From assembly GCF_000585375.1 (NCBI RefSeq), contig NZ_KK073874.1, forward strand, positions 8,219,913 to 8,283,912: 64,000 bases of DNA, written 5' to 3'. A model generated the notes under the pieces. It saw only the letters and a list, made by a program, of their open reading frames with translations. It ran no database searches and had not been told where the DNA came from. Origin of the DNA: Cryptosporangium arvum DSM 44712 (GTDB taxonomy: Bacteria; Actinomycetota; Actinomycetes; Mycobacteriales; Cryptosporangiaceae). Shown in pieces: positions 10,747 to 15,731 of the stretch (positions within the stretch are counted from its first letter, which is position 1; the number at the start of each line of letters is the position of its first letter). Position numbers and translations under genes: made by a program.

Positions 10747-10900
10747 ATGTCGCCTCGGGACAAGCCGTGGCCATCGGCCGCCCTCGACTACGCGACCGGG
10801 CTACATCCGGGCCTGACCACGATTCCGCTGCGCGACATCGCAACCGGTCAGGTCGTCCTCGCCACCCGCGCCAACGACCGGAGCCGCCTGGTCAGGGCGG
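10747..10900 (+). pseudogene. LysR-family regulator, C-terminal fragment
   Basis: One frame reads LHPGLTTIPLRDIATGQVVL followed by ATRANDRSRLVRA, the usual last beta-strand and helix of a LysR ligand domain (the ...IPL-D-..-VLA-R-.. tail). There is no helix-turn-helix or earlier effector domain upstream. The family resemblance stops at about 10900, exactly where the IS5 transposase remnant on the other strand ends. It is best explained as the stub of a regulator destroyed by insertion and deletion. The identification rests on about 45 residues. Confidence 0.4.
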
Positions 10901-11457
10901 GTGCGGGCTCGGCCGCCGCTGGGTCGTGCGACTCTGATCCGACGCTGGACGGGGATGAACTGCGGGCTGTCGCCGCGGTGTCCGGCGGTCACGATCGGCG
11001 CGAGGACCTCCTGGCCCTGCTCGCAGGCCAGATGCGTCTTGGTCGTCAAGACCCGCGGGAACGCCCGAGGCCATGATCTGCGGGTTCGTCGTGGACACCG
11101 CCGGGCGGTTGTTTCTGCAGGTCCCCGTTCCTGGGGGCGCCGGCGGCGTGCTGGTGGGCGCGGCTGGTGGTGGAGTCCACACTCACCGTCCACCCGATCC
11201 GGCCGGCCGCGTCGGCGGTCGGCTGCAGCGTCGCGAGGATTCGGTCCCCGGTGCCGTCGCGCTGCCAGCGGCGGAACAACCCGTAGATGGTCCGCCAAGG
11301 CGCATAGTCCGCCGGGACGCCACGGCGCGCCGATCCGGATCCGGTCGATGAGCTGTCGTTTCTCCCACTTCGGCGGACGACCCGAGGACGAACGTGCAGG
11401 CAGAAGGGGAGCCAGGACCGCCCACTGCGCATCGGTCGGGTCATGCCGCCTCGTCAC
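10885..11457 (-). pseudogene. IS5-family transposase remnant (frameshifted, truncated)
   Basis: The start reads MTRRHDPTDAQWAVLAPLLP, the standard opening of IS5-type (DUF4096) transposases, from a GTG at 11457. The frame then shifts: PADYAPWRTIYGLFRRWQRDGT and WTVSVDSTTSRAHQHAAG (the first catalytic Asp region) are in a second frame, and LTTKTHLACEQGQ...TAGHRGDSPQFIPV (second Asp region) returns to the first. The element stops after RPRT-R-P-D; the last part with the catalytic Glu (RRNxxERCFNRLKQWRG) is absent. It is therefore inactive. No terminal inverted repeats could be defined. Confidence 0.85.
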
Positions 11458-11462
11458 CGCTA

Positions 11463-11496
11463 CGAGGGCCGGGAAGCGTGTGCTCCCCGGCCCTCG
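11463..11496 (-). terminator. Strong hairpin, terminator of the 42-residue gene
   Basis: Arms CGAGGGCCGGG and CCCGGCCCTCG pair perfectly, and the stem continues through AGC/GCT after one mismatch to a 4-base loop (GTGT). It begins 17 bases beyond the stop codon of the leftward small gene at 11513. There is no U-tract, as is common in actinomycetes. Confidence 0.75.
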
Positions 11497-11512: not shown

Positions 11513-11641
11513 TCAGCTGCAGGGGTTGTAGTCCCAGCAGTCGTTGTACCGCTTCTTGTGGTGGCGACGACGACGCGGCTTGCACTCGTTGTAGTCCCAG
11601 TCGTTGCACTGGTTGTAGTCGTAGTCGTAGCAGCCGCTCAT
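11513..11641 (-). CDS. 42-residue Cys/Tyr/Asp/Asn-rich small protein, unknown
   Basis: A short gene with a clear ribosome site (AGGAGG, 9 bases before ATG 11641) and a hairpin terminator just after the stop. The protein has five Cys (4, 12, 20, 35, 41) and three copies of a nine-residue motif C-x-D-[YW]-D-Y-N-x-C: residues 4-12, 12-20 (sharing Cys12) and a variant at 33-41 in which the first Cys has moved to position 35. Between repeats two and three lies a basic block (KPRRRRHHKKR, 21-31). There is no hydrophobic signal or membrane segment. I do not recognise the family. Asp/Asn/Cys spacing suggests metal binding; a modified-peptide precursor is another option. It follows the sigma/Asp23 operon on the same strand but is separated by a hairpin. 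Confidence 0.7.
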   Translation of the reverse strand: MSGCYDYDYNQCNDWDYNECKPRRRRHHKKRYNDCWDYNPCS

Positions 11642-11726
11642 GTCGTCCAGCCTCCTGAGTAAGTAAGTGTGTTCCCCCTGCTGTGCCACTACCTTCCCGC
11701 GAACCCGCGCCCCGCTCGATCGGCCT

Positions 11727-11752
11727 CGCAACCGACGAAACGTTCGGTTGCG
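11727..11752. terminator. Inverted repeat between Asp23-like and small-protein genes
   Basis: Arms CGCAACCGA and TCGGTTGCG pair perfectly over 9 bp with an 8-base loop. It lies 126 bp beyond the stop of the leftward Asp23-like gene and 86 bp before the 42-residue gene. It can act as a terminator for the sigma-Asp23 transcript or as an operator for the small gene. The rest of 11642-11877 shows nothing recognisable. Confidence 0.5.
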
Positions 11753-11877
11753 AACACTGGTGTCAGGTGACGAGGAGCCTCAGATCAGTTTCTCGACGAC
11801 CGAGAGATGCCGGATGGACTGTCCGCCCTTGCGGTCGTCCCTACGCCCGTATCTCCTTCGGTGAGGTCGCCCGGCGC

Positions 11878-12333
11878 TCAGCAGACGTCGCGGGGATCGT
11901 CGGTGACGTCGCTGACCTGGGTGTGGACGGCTACGTTCGACCGGGCGGGCCCACCGAGCACGTCGGTGAGGGTTCGGGCCGTCGCGGTGTGGATCTGGTC
12001 CGCGACGCCGAGCACGGGGCTGCCGTAGGCCACGACGACCTGGACGGTGAGCGATTCCAGCTCGTGGTGGGCGTTGGTGTCGCAGGTGATCCGGGCCGCG
12101 GCGGCGTGCGGTACGGCGTCGACCGCTTCGTGCACGCGGGCGACGACGACGTGGTCGGCCACGGAGAAGTCACCGGTCTCGTGCCGGCCGCGGACGGGCG
12201 CGGAGAGGCGGATGGCGTGCCCGGCACGGTGCAGGACGTCGGTGCTGATGGCGGTCCAACCCGCATCGGTGTGCAGCCGCAACAGGTGGGTGGCCCGGGT
12301 GAGCGTGTCACCGCCCTCGTGGTCGGAGGTCAA
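11878..12333 (-). CDS. Asp23/Gls24-like protein coupled to the ECF sigma gene
   Basis: A protein of about 151 residues. The C-terminal half has the Asp23/Gls24 beta-alpha pattern: LTVQVVVAYGSPVLGVADQIHTATARTL, then NVAVHTQVSDV. These proteins form envelope-stress-associated assemblies tethered by AmaP in Firmicutes. The TTG at 12333 was chosen because AAGGAG lies 5 bases upstream and the TTG overlaps the sigma-factor stop (TTGA), indicating translational coupling; a GTG at 12339 is too close to that ribosome site. The same family is encoded three more times on the divergent operon starting at 13139. It may be an accessory or regulator of the paired sigma factor. Confidence 0.7.
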   Translation of the reverse strand: MTSDHEGGDTLTRATHLLRLHTDAGWTAISTDVLHRAGHAIRLSAPVRGRHETGDFSVADHVVVARVHEAVDAVPHAAAARITCDTNAHHELESLTVQVVVAYGSPVLGVADQIHTATARTLTDVLGGPARSNVAVHTQVSDVTDDPRDVC

Positions 12334-12932
12334 CGCCACTCCTTCAAGGTGATCACCAGCGCGGCGCGGGCTCGTTCGAGCAGTCCGCGTACGGCATCGG
12401 GAGTGACAGCCATGACGGTCGCTATCTGGACGTAGGTGAATCCTTCGATCTCCCGCAGGAGCCAGACCGACCGTTGCCGCGGCGGCAGCATCCGCAGGGC
12501 CAGATCGAGGGCGACGAGAAGATCGTGTCGCTGGTGGGTTCCGGCCGGGTCGGCATCACGCGCGGGAAGCCGGTCGATGACGTCGTCGACGTCGACGTGA
12601 CCGCGATGCCCCACCTCGGGCGCGTGCCGGTAGTGCGCATACACCCGTCGACGAGCAAGCGTGAACAACCACGTCTGAAGCGCGGCGTCGCCGCGGAAGC
12701 CGCCCCGGCCCTTCCAGGCGTCGAGGAACGTCTCCTGCAGGATGTCCTCGGCATCGGACGGATTGTCGAGCAGCCGGAAGATGTAGCGGTAGAGCCCGGG
12801 TCCATACCGGGTCACGACGAGGGCGAAGGCTTTCCGGTCGCCCAGCCCGGCGCGCCGGGACAGTACCCGGTCGGGCGTCCGGACGCGGTCCGCGGCCGGC
12901 CGCGCGTGCTGATGTATCGACTGCGCCGACAA
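12330..12932 (-). CDS. ECF-type RNA polymerase sigma factor
   Basis: A 200-residue sigma-70 group 4 protein. Region 2 spans about residues 35-100: LYRYIFRLLDNPSDAEDILQ is the core-binding segment, followed by ETFLDAWKGRGGFRGDAALQ and TWLFTLARRRVYAHYR for -10 recognition. Region 4 spans about 145-195: LALRMLPPRQRSVWLLREIE, then GFTYVQIATVMAVTPDAVRG as the helix-turn-helix. Translation would begin at TTG 12932, a weak site; a start a few codons later is possible. No anti-sigma gene adjoins. Instead an Asp23-like gene overlaps its stop, and an Asp23/AmaP operon diverges from its promoter, so it probably controls that envelope-stress cluster. Confidence 0.88.
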   Translation of the reverse strand: MSAQSIHQHARPAADRVRTPDRVLSRRAGLGDRKAFALVVTRYGPGLYRYIFRLLDNPSDAEDILQETFLDAWKGRGGFRGDAALQTWLFTLARRRVYAHYRHAPEVGHRGHVDVDDVIDRLPARDADPAGTHQRHDLLVALDLALRMLPPRQRSVWLLREIEGFTYVQIATVMAVTPDAVRGLLERARAALVITLKEWR

Positions 12933-13138
12933 CGGCTGCGCCTCGTCTCCAGGCTCGGGGCGCGCTGGATGCCCGCGTCGCCCGGGCTCACCGGATTCCG
13001 TCTAGTGATCTAGCTCACCCGATTCTGACCGTGAGGTTGTTGCATTTCGGCTCTCTAACTAGGTGACACATCGTCGCGAGTCGACGGTGGGTTCCGCCGG
13101 TCGCTGTCGTGACCGGTGACGTACCCGAAGGAGATCCC

Positions 13139-13612
13139 ATGACGGAGTCGACGACCATCACCCCGACGAAGACGAACGACCGGCCCGGGAACCTGGCCAC
13201 CCGGGACCAGGGTCTGCAGACCACGCAGGGCACCACCTCGATCGCGGACACCGTGGTGTCCAAGATCGCCGGGATCGCCGCGAAGGACGTCTCCGGCGTG
13301 TACTCGCTGGGTGGTGGGGGATCGCGGGCCATGAGCGCCGTGCGCGAACGGATCCCGGGCGGCCGGGTCAACCACTCGCAGGGTGTGTCGGTCGAAGTCG
13401 GCGAGACGCAGGCCGCGGTCGACATCGACATGGTCGCCGAGTACGGCGTCGCGATCGCGGATCTCGCATCCGGCGTGCGGCGCAACGTGATCGCGTCGAT
13501 CGAGCGGATGACCGGCCTGGACGTCACCGAGGTCAACATCGCGGTCGCCGACATCCACCTGCCCGAGGACGACGAGGACGACGACACCGACCGCACCCCG
13601 CGGGTGCAGTGA
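13139..13612 (+). CDS. Asp23/Gls24 family envelope stress protein
   Basis: A 157-residue protein with a full Asp23 domain (about residues 30-145): TSIADTVVSKIAGIAAKDVS, GVYSLGGGGSRAMSAVRERI, VSVEVGETQAAVDIDMVAEY and a final VTEVNIAVADIHLPEDDEDD. The N-terminus is polar and the C-terminus acidic. The ATG at 13139 is set by GAAGGAG 6-7 bases upstream; the longer open frame lacks this. It is the first gene of a six-gene rightward operon encoding three Asp23-like proteins and two membrane anchors, so it is probably the major soluble component of a membrane-apposed layer, as known for Asp23-AmaP in Staphylococcus. Confidence 0.9.
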   Translation: MTESTTITPTKTNDRPGNLATRDQGLQTTQGTTSIADTVVSKIAGIAAKDVSGVYSLGGGGSRAMSAVRERIPGGRVNHSQGVSVEVGETQAAVDIDMVAEYGVAIADLASGVRRNVIASIERMTGLDVTEVNIAVADIHLPEDDEDDDTDRTPRVQ

Positions 13613-13932
13613 GCACGCCCGTCCCGGCCATCGAGGGGTGGTCCGGGACCGTCATCGATCAGGTACCGACGGCGGCTGACGACCTCGCCGTCCTCGTCCG
13701 GGCCGTTCCCGGTGTGGTGCGACTGCACCCGGGCCGCTTCGGTGAGGTGGCGACGTACCTGCCCGGCCGACGGGTGACCGGGATCAAACTGGGCGATCAC
13801 CGCGTCGAGGTCCATGTCGTGCTGGCGGTGGACGCGCCGATCAGACGCACCGCGCAACTGATCCACGACGCGGTCACCCCGCTGGTCGCCAGGCCGGTCC
13901 ACGTCTTCGTCGAGGACGTCGCGGCCGACTGA
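13609..13932 (+). CDS. Small Asp23-like domain protein
   Basis: A 107-residue protein that keeps only the core strands of the Asp23 fold: VPGVVRLHPGRFGEVATYLP, GIKLGDHRVEVHVVLAVDAP and PVHVFVEDVAAD, the last matching the VDVHVxDV ending of the family. The GTG start overlaps the previous stop (GTGA, 13609-13612), so it is translated from the same message. The relation to Asp23 is by pattern and position; it could serve as a capping or adaptor subunit. Confidence 0.65.
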   Translation: MSTPVPAIEGWSGTVIDQVPTAADDLAVLVRAVPGVVRLHPGRFGEVATYLPGRRVTGIKLGDHRVEVHVVLAVDAPIRRTAQLIHDAVTPLVARPVHVFVEDVAAD

Positions 13933-14022
13933 TTCGCCGCGGGTCGGCGGTTCCGGTCACCCGGTGCCGTCGACCGCCGCTCCACCAGCCGTTTCTTCGC
14001 GCCATCCGATCGGGAGTTGACC

Positions 14023-14202
14023 ATGTCCTATTCCGCCGTCGGCCTGTTCGCCGGGCTCCTACTCGCCTTGATCACCGCCACCGCCGGGTTCGCGTGGTTC
14101 CTGCTCGCCGTGTTGTTCGCGGCCGTCGGCTACGCCGTCGGCGCTCACCTGGAAGGCCGGGTCAACCTCACCGGTCTGGTCCCGGGACGTAGTCGTGGCT
14201 GA
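14023..14202 (+). CDS. Small membrane protein (DUF2273-like) of the Asp23 operon
   Basis: A 59-residue protein with two adjoining transmembrane helices (VGLFAGLLLALITATAGF and AWFLLAVLFAAVGYAVGAHL) and a short basic tail ending LVPGRSRG. Small two-helix DUF2273 proteins accompany Asp23/AmaP genes in many Gram-positives. The ATG at 14023 has GGGAG 7 bases upstream; a TTG six bases earlier is less likely. Its end overlaps the next GTG by 8 bp. It probably anchors the soluble Asp23-like proteins to the membrane. Confidence 0.75.
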   Translation: MSYSAVGLFAGLLLALITATAGFAWFLLAVLFAAVGYAVGAHLEGRVNLTGLVPGRSRG

Positions 14203-14593
14203 CCGCCCCGTCGCCGGCCCCGCTTCCGCCGACGACGAGCCCGGGGGGCGCGGCCGCCTGGTCATCGAGGACCGTGCCGTGCAGCGCATCGCCGAGGCCG
14301 CCGCCACGCGGGTGGTCGGCGTGGTTCCGGCCGCGCAGAGCGTCGGCGCGCTGAGTTCGGCGTTGGGGCGCGCCTACCCGCGGGTGGACTGCGACGTCGC
14401 CGCCGGTCGGGTCCGCGCCGACGTCGAGATCGTCGCCCTCTGGCCGACCCCCGCCGCCCACCTGGGTGAACAGGTCAGAGACGCCGTCACCGACCAGCTC
14501 CATCGGCTGGCCGGACTGCAGGTGGACGCCGTCGACGTCACCATCGCCGACCTCGTCCGGGTGGCGGCACCCGCGCGCAGGAGAGTCCGATGA
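14195..14593 (+). CDS. Asp23/Gls24 family protein
   Basis: A 132-residue protein with an Asp23 domain: VIEDRAVQRIAEAAATRVVG near residue 25, VDCDVAAGRVRADVEIVALW, and a final AGLQVDAVDVTIADLVRVAA. It resembles the product of 13139 but with a shorter N-terminus. The GTG start overlaps the DUF2273-like gene, and its own stop overlaps the next gene by ATGA (14590-14593). A paralogue in the same operon suggests hetero-oligomers. Confidence 0.85.
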   Translation: MADRPVAGPASADDEPGGRGRLVIEDRAVQRIAEAAATRVVGVVPAAQSVGALSSALGRAYPRVDCDVAAGRVRADVEIVALWPTPAAHLGEQVRDAVTDQLHRLAGLQVDAVDVTIADLVRVAAPARRRVR

Positions 14594-15150
14594 CCATCGC
14601 ACCCGAACCAGCCATGCGCGCCGCGCGGCAGCAGACCGGGGCCGGGCGCATCGGCGCCGTCGGCCCCGTGTTCGCGATCCTGCTCACCGCGACCGGCGTG
14701 GTTCTCCTCCACGACGCGCTCTCCGAGGTCGACAGCGCGCCCGGCCGGACCTGGCTGGCGGCGCTCGCCGACGGCCTCGACGGGTTCAGCGCGCAGTGGT
14801 GGCTGATTCCCGCCGGGGTCGCCGTCGCGCTGATCGGCATGTGGTTGATCGTCGCCGCGCTGCGGCCACGGTCACGCCGTAGCCTCGCGGTCGTGTCCGA
14901 GACCGGGGTGTTTCTCCGCACCCGCGACGTTGCCCGGCTGGCTTCCGCCGCGGCCGACGACGTCGACGGCGTGCTGGCCGCGCATTCCGTGGCCGGCCGG
15001 CGATCGGTCACCGTCACCGTCGACTCGGACGTTCCCGGCATCGCCGACCGTGTCCGGGAGACGGTCGACCGGCGACTGGACGCACTTGTCGAACCGATGG
15101 CCGTGAAGGTCCGGGTCCGTTCGCACTTCCAGCCTCGGAAAGGCGACTGA
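14590..15150 (+). CDS. DUF6286-type membrane protein of the Asp23 cluster
   Basis: A 186-residue protein with two transmembrane helices (VGPVFAILLTATGVVLLHDA near 25-45 and WWLIPAGVAVALIGMWLIVA near 70-90), followed by a cytoplasmic domain of the DUF6286 pattern: VSETGVFLRTRDVARLASAA ... VTVTVDSDVPGIADRVRETV. This domain is Asp23-like in its strand-helix order. It overlaps both neighbours by one to four bases. The likely role is a second membrane anchor for the Asp23 layer. Confidence 0.8.
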   Translation: MTIAPEPAMRAARQQTGAGRIGAVGPVFAILLTATGVVLLHDALSEVDSAPGRTWLAALADGLDGFSAQWWLIPAGVAVALIGMWLIVAALRPRSRRSLAVVSETGVFLRTRDVARLASAAADDVDGVLAAHSVAGRRSVTVTVDSDVPGIADRVRETVDRRLDALVEPMAVKVRVRSHFQPRKGD

Positions 15151-15731
15151 TGCGTCGCTCCGTGCTTGCTCTCGACCGCGTGATGGCCGCTCTGCTCGGG
15201 CTCATCCTCTTCGTCGCCGGAGTCGGCGCTGCCGCCTGGTACCAGGGCGGACTGCGTCGGTGGTGGCCGAGTTCCCCGGGGACCCTGTCGTCGGCCGGCG
15301 TCGACGACGTCCTCGATTCGGGGTGGTGGCCGTGGGTCGCCGCGGGCGCCGGCGCCCTCGCCGTTCTGCTCGGCCTGTGGTGGCTGCTGGCGCACCTGCC
15401 GCGGCGTGGCCCTGGCCTCCTCGTGCTTCCGGGCTCCGGCCGGCCCGGGCGCCTGCTCATCGATCCCAGCGGTCCGGCCGAAGCCGCCGCCGAGGTCCTC
15501 GCCGACGCTCCGGGGATTCGCGCGACGCACAGCAAGGTGCGCCGCGACCGCGGAGAGCTCGTCGTCACCCTCACCGGGACGATCGACCCGCGGGCCGACC
15601 TGACCGAGGTCGTCGCCGCCACCGATGCCGTCGCCACCCAGCTCCGGACGGTCCTCGGACGTGACGACGCCCGGGCCCGCATCCAGCTCTCCGTCGCCCG
15701 CCGCGCCCGCCGCCCGGCCCGCGTGCACTGA
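15150..15731 (+). CDS. amaP: AmaP-like alkaline shock membrane anchor
   Basis: A 193-residue protein with two transmembrane helices (about residues 10-32 and 58-82, the second ending in LWWLLAHLPRRGPG), then a soluble domain with the AmaP pattern (RLLIDPSGPAEAAAEVLADA, ELVVTLTGTIDPRADLTEVV) and an Arg-rich tail. It starts on the ATG overlapping the previous TGA. In Firmicutes, AmaP recruits Asp23 to the membrane; the same arrangement is inferred here. A 31-base tandem duplication begins inside its last codons. Confidence 0.8.
   Translation: MRRSVLALDRVMAALLGLILFVAGVGAAAWYQGGLRRWWPSSPGTLSSAGVDDVLDSGWWPWVAAGAGALAVLLGLWWLLAHLPRRGPGLLVLPGSGRPGRLLIDPSGPAEAAAEVLADAPGIRATHSKVRRDRGELVVTLTGTIDPRADLTEVVAATDAVATQLRTVLGRDDARARIQLSVARRARRPARVH

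Follow-up and report, generated by a model that had tools for sequence, protein, structure and literature searches.

The open reading frame (ORF) at positions 11513–11641 on the minus strand of the window, by which we mean the whole 64,000-nt stretch analysed (positions 8219913–8283912 of a single-contig genome of 9,195,993 bases), is near certain to be a genuine gene and the member of a gene family. It is not a chance ORF, because it has 17 genome copies and homologues in three congeneric species, and because the ORF length differences are exclusively in frame. Judged by the extent of homology, the duplicated unit is a self-contained transcription unit of about 300 bp (promoter-like block, leader, ORF and terminator-like hairpin), since the homology ends at the promoter-like block on one side and at the terminator-like hairpin on the other. 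Bacteria rarely keep that many near-identical copies of one protein gene, and 17 scattered, separately promoted copies suggest a large cellular need for the product.

The gene, its copies and signs of translation

The ORF runs from the ATG at 11641–11639 to the stop codon at 11515–11513 and encodes the 42-residue protein MSGCYDYDYNQCNDWDYNECKPRRRRHHKKRYNDCWDYNPCS, which has three parts: a Tyr/Asp/Asn/Cys-rich head, an Arg/His/Lys block and a Trp/Tyr tail. As the first-pass annotation had pointed out, a Shine–Dalgarno sequence, AGGAGG, stands at the right distance (11651–11656 on the minus strand, 9 nt before the ATG), and GGAGGctGgaCGACATGAGC is conserved across the copies at this site. The five Cys and three motif copies that it had described are likewise present: C-x-D-[YW]-D-Y-N-x-C is matched by residues 4–12 (CYDYDYNQC) and 12–20 (CNDWDYNEC), and residues 35–41 (CWDYNPC) form a shortened variant. 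The transcription signals that it had assigned to the gene stood in part. There is a strong hairpin past the stop, and also a promoter-like block, but not the proposed upstream hairpin: the 5′ leader does not fold more strongly than shuffled sequences do (z = −0.08), and a structured leader was rejected. The GC-rich, terminator-like hairpin at 11463–11496 (minus strand; 15 bp, loop ACAC) begins 16 nt past the stop and lacks the U-tract demanded by the terminator scan; the 62 nt past the stop have a folding energy of −41 kcal/mol. All own-genome copies end in a GC-rich hairpin of this kind without a U-tract (−28 to −45 kcal/mol for the 62 nt past the stop). An Rfam search returned only sub-threshold matches, of microRNA models on the terminator hairpin, which were rejected as such.

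The claim that the gene was unrecognised also held. Searches of Pfam and NCBIfam gave no match above the curated cut-offs, the sub-threshold ones (CHCH, E = 0.05 in one of 18 sequences; PRK15213, E = 0.35) being taken as chance, and a search of the PDB returned no relative.

A 161-nt DNA query found the 17 genome copies at E ≤ 1e-39, and a protein query found the same loci at E ≤ 1e-16. Eight of the copies encode the identical 42 residues, and the remainder vary mainly in the head. Seven, including six of the eight with identical protein, lie within 14 kb at 8.9647–8.9786 Mb, with a His-rich sister gene just ahead of them at 8.9606 Mb; the other copies are scattered through the genome. Each of the three congeneric genomes contains 10–21 diverged matches (E ≤ 1), including partial ones and ones at contig ends. 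At one locus (L009:9725–11740), four cassettes stand in tandem within about 2 kb, spaced 530–680 bp apart with no evident genes between them. Among 399 genomes of the order and 397 of the phylum, a sample rather than an exhaustive set, there was no convincing match outside the genus, and weak matches in other genera (E = 4e-4 to 0.07 per genome, 399 genomes) were taken as chance. Samples of viral contig, plasmid and phage collections contained no relative. In a collection of genome contigs from which the genus itself is seemingly absent, an alignment scan gave 18 unconfirmed pattern matches, about the number estimated for chance, and a DNA pattern of the start codon and its context gave none.

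The copies have several signs of translation. When the ORFs are aligned, all length differences are multiples of three, and the length of the leader varies freely. Conservation follows the ORF boundaries, because the eight identical-protein copies are 98.8% identical in the ORF, as against 73% in the promoter and 57% in the terminator region after the stop; in the outer flank the figure is 23%. Across the 17 copies, Tyr, Asn, Asp, Cys, His, Lys, Glu and Gln always use the preferred codon, and CGT makes up 40% of Arg codons compared with 11% in background genes, a comparison in which the copies are not independent. The codon adaptation index of 0.91 exceeds that of all 103 background genes; calculated on EF-Tu weights only and from non-independent copies, it is suggestive rather than firm. 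By these signs the ORF is very probably translated, and the codon choice, copy number and shared dedicated promoter make high expression of the protein likely. Purifying selection on the head appears weak, much of this region changing freely, because pN/pS is moderate within the genome (0.44) and near 1 between the most distant species (up to 0.98).

The cassette and its evolution

Upstream of the ORF, a promoter-like block of 78 nt (11681–11758, minus strand) can be aligned across 25 copies from four species with no gap; TGT, GAAC..T, GT and GA.CGA are invariant, and the core is GTGTT-N6-CGAACGTT-N17-GATCGAGC. The element CGAACGTT (11739–11746, minus strand), present in nearly all copies at fixed spacing, is putatively −35-like, and GATCGA (11716–11721, minus strand), 17 nt after it, is putatively −10-like. 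Their spacing resembles that of an ECF-type promoter (a −35 with AAC and a −10 with CG/GA, 16–19 nt apart), and we infer such a promoter only as a candidate. To our knowledge, no actinobacterial promoter motif fits the 78-nt block convincingly. A profile of the block (model R1) matched the window copy at genome positions 8231594–8231670 (E = 7e-19) and recovers ORF copies, sister genes and relics; among 30 relatives it had no convincing match in other genera, and matches in G015 and G024 were taken as chance.

Homology between copies extends over median limits of −117 to +181 around the ATG, ending at the terminator-like hairpin. Beyond these ends the flanks are unrelated, at the 23% identity given above, and the adjoining genes vary between copies. 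Inspection by eye showed no terminal repeats, such as MITEs and insertion sequences have, at about −117 or +181. In a synteny test with the flank genes of seven copies, four copies had their flank gene in at least one other species with no cassette in the stretch read, a fifth had a diverged flank-gene match and two had matches in their own genome only; no clean empty site was recovered. Many of the insertions look lineage-specific, because at least four G000 copies have a flank gene that lacks the cassette in other species. How a promoter-to-terminator cassette is dispersed without visible transposon ends is a question that this family raises.

The terminator of the window copy abuts the remnant of an IS5-type transposase (10801–11457, minus strand), spread over more than one reading frame (DUF4096, E = 2e-7, below the curated cut-off), which is not part of the gene. 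IS5-type genes lie a few kilobases from some copies and are not in the called flanks of most, and we discarded an IS5 link as a shared feature. On the other side lies an envelope-stress-like block (11878–15731) that includes a weakly Asp23-like gene, an ECF-type sigma factor with Sigma70_r2 and r4 (12330–12932) and an Asp23 protein (13109–13612) followed by small membrane-protein-like genes. The annotation had offered this ECF-sigma/Asp23 neighbourhood as context for the gene, but it belongs to this copy only, the others standing beside unrelated genes. An attenuation leader peptide, whose terminator would be followed by a co-oriented biosynthetic gene, does not fit either: the genes downstream of the copies vary and often point in the opposite direction.

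Proteins are 73–89% identical within genomes and 50–70% between genomes, so that paralogues of one genome are more alike than relatives from different species, whereas the promoters are about equally divergent within and between genomes. The difference reaches synonymous positions. Four-fold sites are 81% alike among the eight identical-protein copies, compared with 40% in the promoter spacer, and 69% alike among all 17, compared with 51% as the highest value in simulations where codons were chosen independently and with 38% in the promoter spacer. On these alignments the ORF copies evolve in concert, since the likeness among ORFs greatly exceeds that among their promoters, synonymous sites included. 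Gene conversion that homogenises the ORF would be the simplest reading, and constraint on the ORF nucleotides is a possible alternative; what maintains the uniformity of the ORF while the promoter drifts is a second question raised here. Concertedly evolving protein genes have been described as rare in prokaryotes, with 26 genes reported (PMC6053082). Those genes share with the present family a greater likeness of paralogues within genomes than between species; they are long-lasting and mostly members of key pathways, whereas this is an orphan microprotein with 17 copies in one genus.

There are also signs of decay and turnover. Across the four genomes, five ORF-less cassettes keep the promoter and the hairpin. 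In a syntenic block of about 15–19 kb shared by G003 and G002, the cassette ORF is present in G003 and lost in G002, with matching terminators, and a sister gene (MSGHEHHGDCGYDYNNSWDYECYKPRKHRRRHSRKRHASCWDYTGW and its relative) occupies the same place in both. The orthologous cassette (L211:15798–15870 and L209:6597–6878), flanked by an EF-hand gene on one side and a transporter on the other, keeps its promoter and terminator in both genomes; there is an ORF in G003, with a partial tandem duplication over an N, and none in G002.

Protein layout and possible roles

The composition of the protein is extreme. Ala, Val, Leu, Ile, Phe, Thr and internal Met are all missing from the 41 residues after the start Met (p about 3e-12 under the amino-acid composition of the window), Tyr, Trp, Cys, Asp and Asn make up 57% of it, compared with 13% in the background, and 15 of the 42 residues are Tyr, Trp, Cys or His. 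The main alignment has M1, S2, Y9, Y17, P22, R23, R24, R26, H27, H28, K29, R31, C35, W36, D37 and Y38 invariant (MS...Y...Y...PRR.RHHK.R...CWDY), and C20 is nearly so. The first-pass annotation had made three Cys motif units the core of the protein, which the wider family contradicts: some copies have lost or gained repeat units or carry changed ones, and the number of Cys varies from five to three in the main family and is zero in a very His-rich sister, with indels changing the spacing. The profiles of the promoter and of the family also led to sister genes whose products have the same three-part layout but other chemistry, such as MSDYNHCGYEQSWDYNDCHKPRRHRRRRHQKRYNDCWSYNSY in G003 and, free of Cys, MSHHRDDHGHWDHHDDHGKHRRRRRHHRKHRDENWGWGHS in G000. 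In these comparisons the lasting feature is an aromatic/acidic/polar head, a basic block and an aromatic tail, and the Cys motif is not defining, because sister genes keep the layout with few or no Cys. The annotation had named a loss of the Cys/Asp/Tyr spacing in all homologues as a ground for refutation, and this applies only in part: the architecture is preserved among homologues, but their Cys are not spaced exactly alike. AlphaFold gave a pLDDT of 44 from the sequence alone and 50 with the family alignment, and no secondary structure; the protein is predicted to be disordered, for which this is weak evidence, the alignment comprising 18 similar sequences.

Our best guess, a tentative one, is that this microprotein is made at high dosage and is abundant, and that it is disordered and binds polyanions or self-assembles. 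Many copies, optimal codons and a shared promoter would yield large amounts of protein under one regulator. The protein would stay unfolded and act as a sticky polyampholyte. Its central Arg/His/Lys block could bind a polyanion, be it RNA, DNA, polyphosphate or an anionic polymer of the cell, and its Tyr/Trp-Asp/Asn flanks would link molecules into a condensate or matrix, with disulfides assisting in the Cys-rich forms. Because the protein has no signal peptide or hydrophobic stretch, it most likely acts in the cytoplasm; the lack of a hydrophobic stretch also argues against Sec, Tat and membrane routes. Disordered, arginine-rich human microproteins (NBDY, NISM and others) offer an analogy only: they too are tiny and disordered, some are arginine-rich and NBDY forms droplets with RNA, but they are human, do not come as multi-copy cassettes and have functions that have been shown (PMC13276856), whereas the function given here to the 42-residue protein is our inference. 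Should the protein indeed form a condensate or matrix, it would represent a natural sticker protein in minimal form.

Several other readings would account for parts of the evidence. That C35 is invariant in the main family, and C20 nearly so, may be a sign of metal or redox chemistry and counts against the role preferred above; a small protein that binds Zn, Cu or Mn through its Cys, His, Tyr and Asp, or in which these residues are sacrificially oxidised in thiol-redox or radical-scavenging chemistry, would also explain the five Cys and the HH of the window copy, the share of Tyr, Trp, Cys and His and the very His-rich sister. We consider this unlikely: the number and spacing of Cys drift between copies, the His-rich sister has no Cys at all and Pfam, NCBIfam and the PDB offer no metal-binding family or structure. 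A metallothionein-like or zinc-finger protein is likewise unlikely, the Cys/His ligands being conserved in neither number nor spacing. That the family consists of RiPP precursors, many core-bearing peptides served by one maturase acting in trans as in prochlorosins, is improbable. The many small precursor-like genes per genome and their repeated Cys/Tyr/Asp units would suit it, but no maturase or peptide-modifying gene was recognised beside the copies when the gene calls were read by eye, and the constant part is the C-terminal half (KPRRRRHHKKRYNDCWDY), the opposite of a conserved leader with a hypervariable core. Equally improbable is a mobile or regulatory DNA cassette (promoter and terminator, or a small RNA) in which the ORF is a passenger. 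The dispersed copies, the five ORF-less promoter–hairpin relics and the orthologous G002 cassette that lost its ORF and kept both signals speak for it; against it, the ORF is the best conserved part, with in-frame indels and optimal codons, and the cassettes have neither visible terminal repeats nor an Rfam family.

Material of the envelope, spore or sporangium that leaves the cell by a route not recognised here, and is cross-linked by disulfide bonds or by oxidised Tyr, follows a chaplin-like logic and is unlikely, even though a multi-copy, high-dosage small protein with Tyr, Trp and Cys would fit it. Streptomyces, a filamentous actinomycete, has several chaplins (Chp) in each genome, small paralogues that are redundant in part, and the present family resembles them in being several small paralogues per genome in an actinomycete. 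Chaplins have Sec signal peptides and hydrophobic, amyloid-forming domains, however; both are missing from the 42-residue protein, which contains no aliphatic residues and matches no Pfam family, so we rejected membership. No copy has, in its sequence, a signal peptide, hydrophobic segment or sorting signal, and the copies share no link to any envelope gene. A disordered surface protein does have a precedent in a sporangium-forming actinomycete: SspA of Actinoplanes missouriensis, putatively intrinsically disordered, is needed for rigid sporangia (PMC13293333). It is likened here by description, not by sequence, and is sortase-anchored on the spore wall, unlike the present protein, which lacks a sorting signal.

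Lineage-restricted orphan microproteins are already known as a class; the copy number, organisation and sequence of this family are unusual. Somewhat more doubtful than the role preferred above, polyanion binding or self-assembly, is the broader idea of a new class, in which high-dosage, aliphatic-free, disordered Tyr/Asp-Arg polyampholytes would be encoded by 10–21 spreading autonomous cassettes per genome, homogenised around the ORF, and would form a condensate or matrix in one actinomycete genus.

Further occurrences of the promoter type

What looks like a relic cassette promoter stands about 115 nt upstream of a sigma-factor-like gene (L119; L204:4720–4870). It could have been co-opted to drive that gene; we do not claim sigma-factor autoregulation, since the promoter match looks like a relic cassette. 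A weaker match to the promoter model (L133, G002:C1:329211; E = 6e-6) lies upstream of a tiny Tyr-rich ORF, MSYGTETYEESGSAGTDYFCYENGYYYRATARPRDDR. The same promoter type also recurs at an orthologous place in all four species (L200:6051–6300, L201:5813, L202:6089 and L203:6007), upstream of a small, variable ORF that begins MTISLELLTDRRCPFDRP in G000, reads RRCPCDR...GCVGRP in G002 and G003 and is truncated in G001, and upstream of a conserved block that includes a cyclase-like gene and one for a Ser/Thr kinase. This locus is possibly a second member of the regulon.
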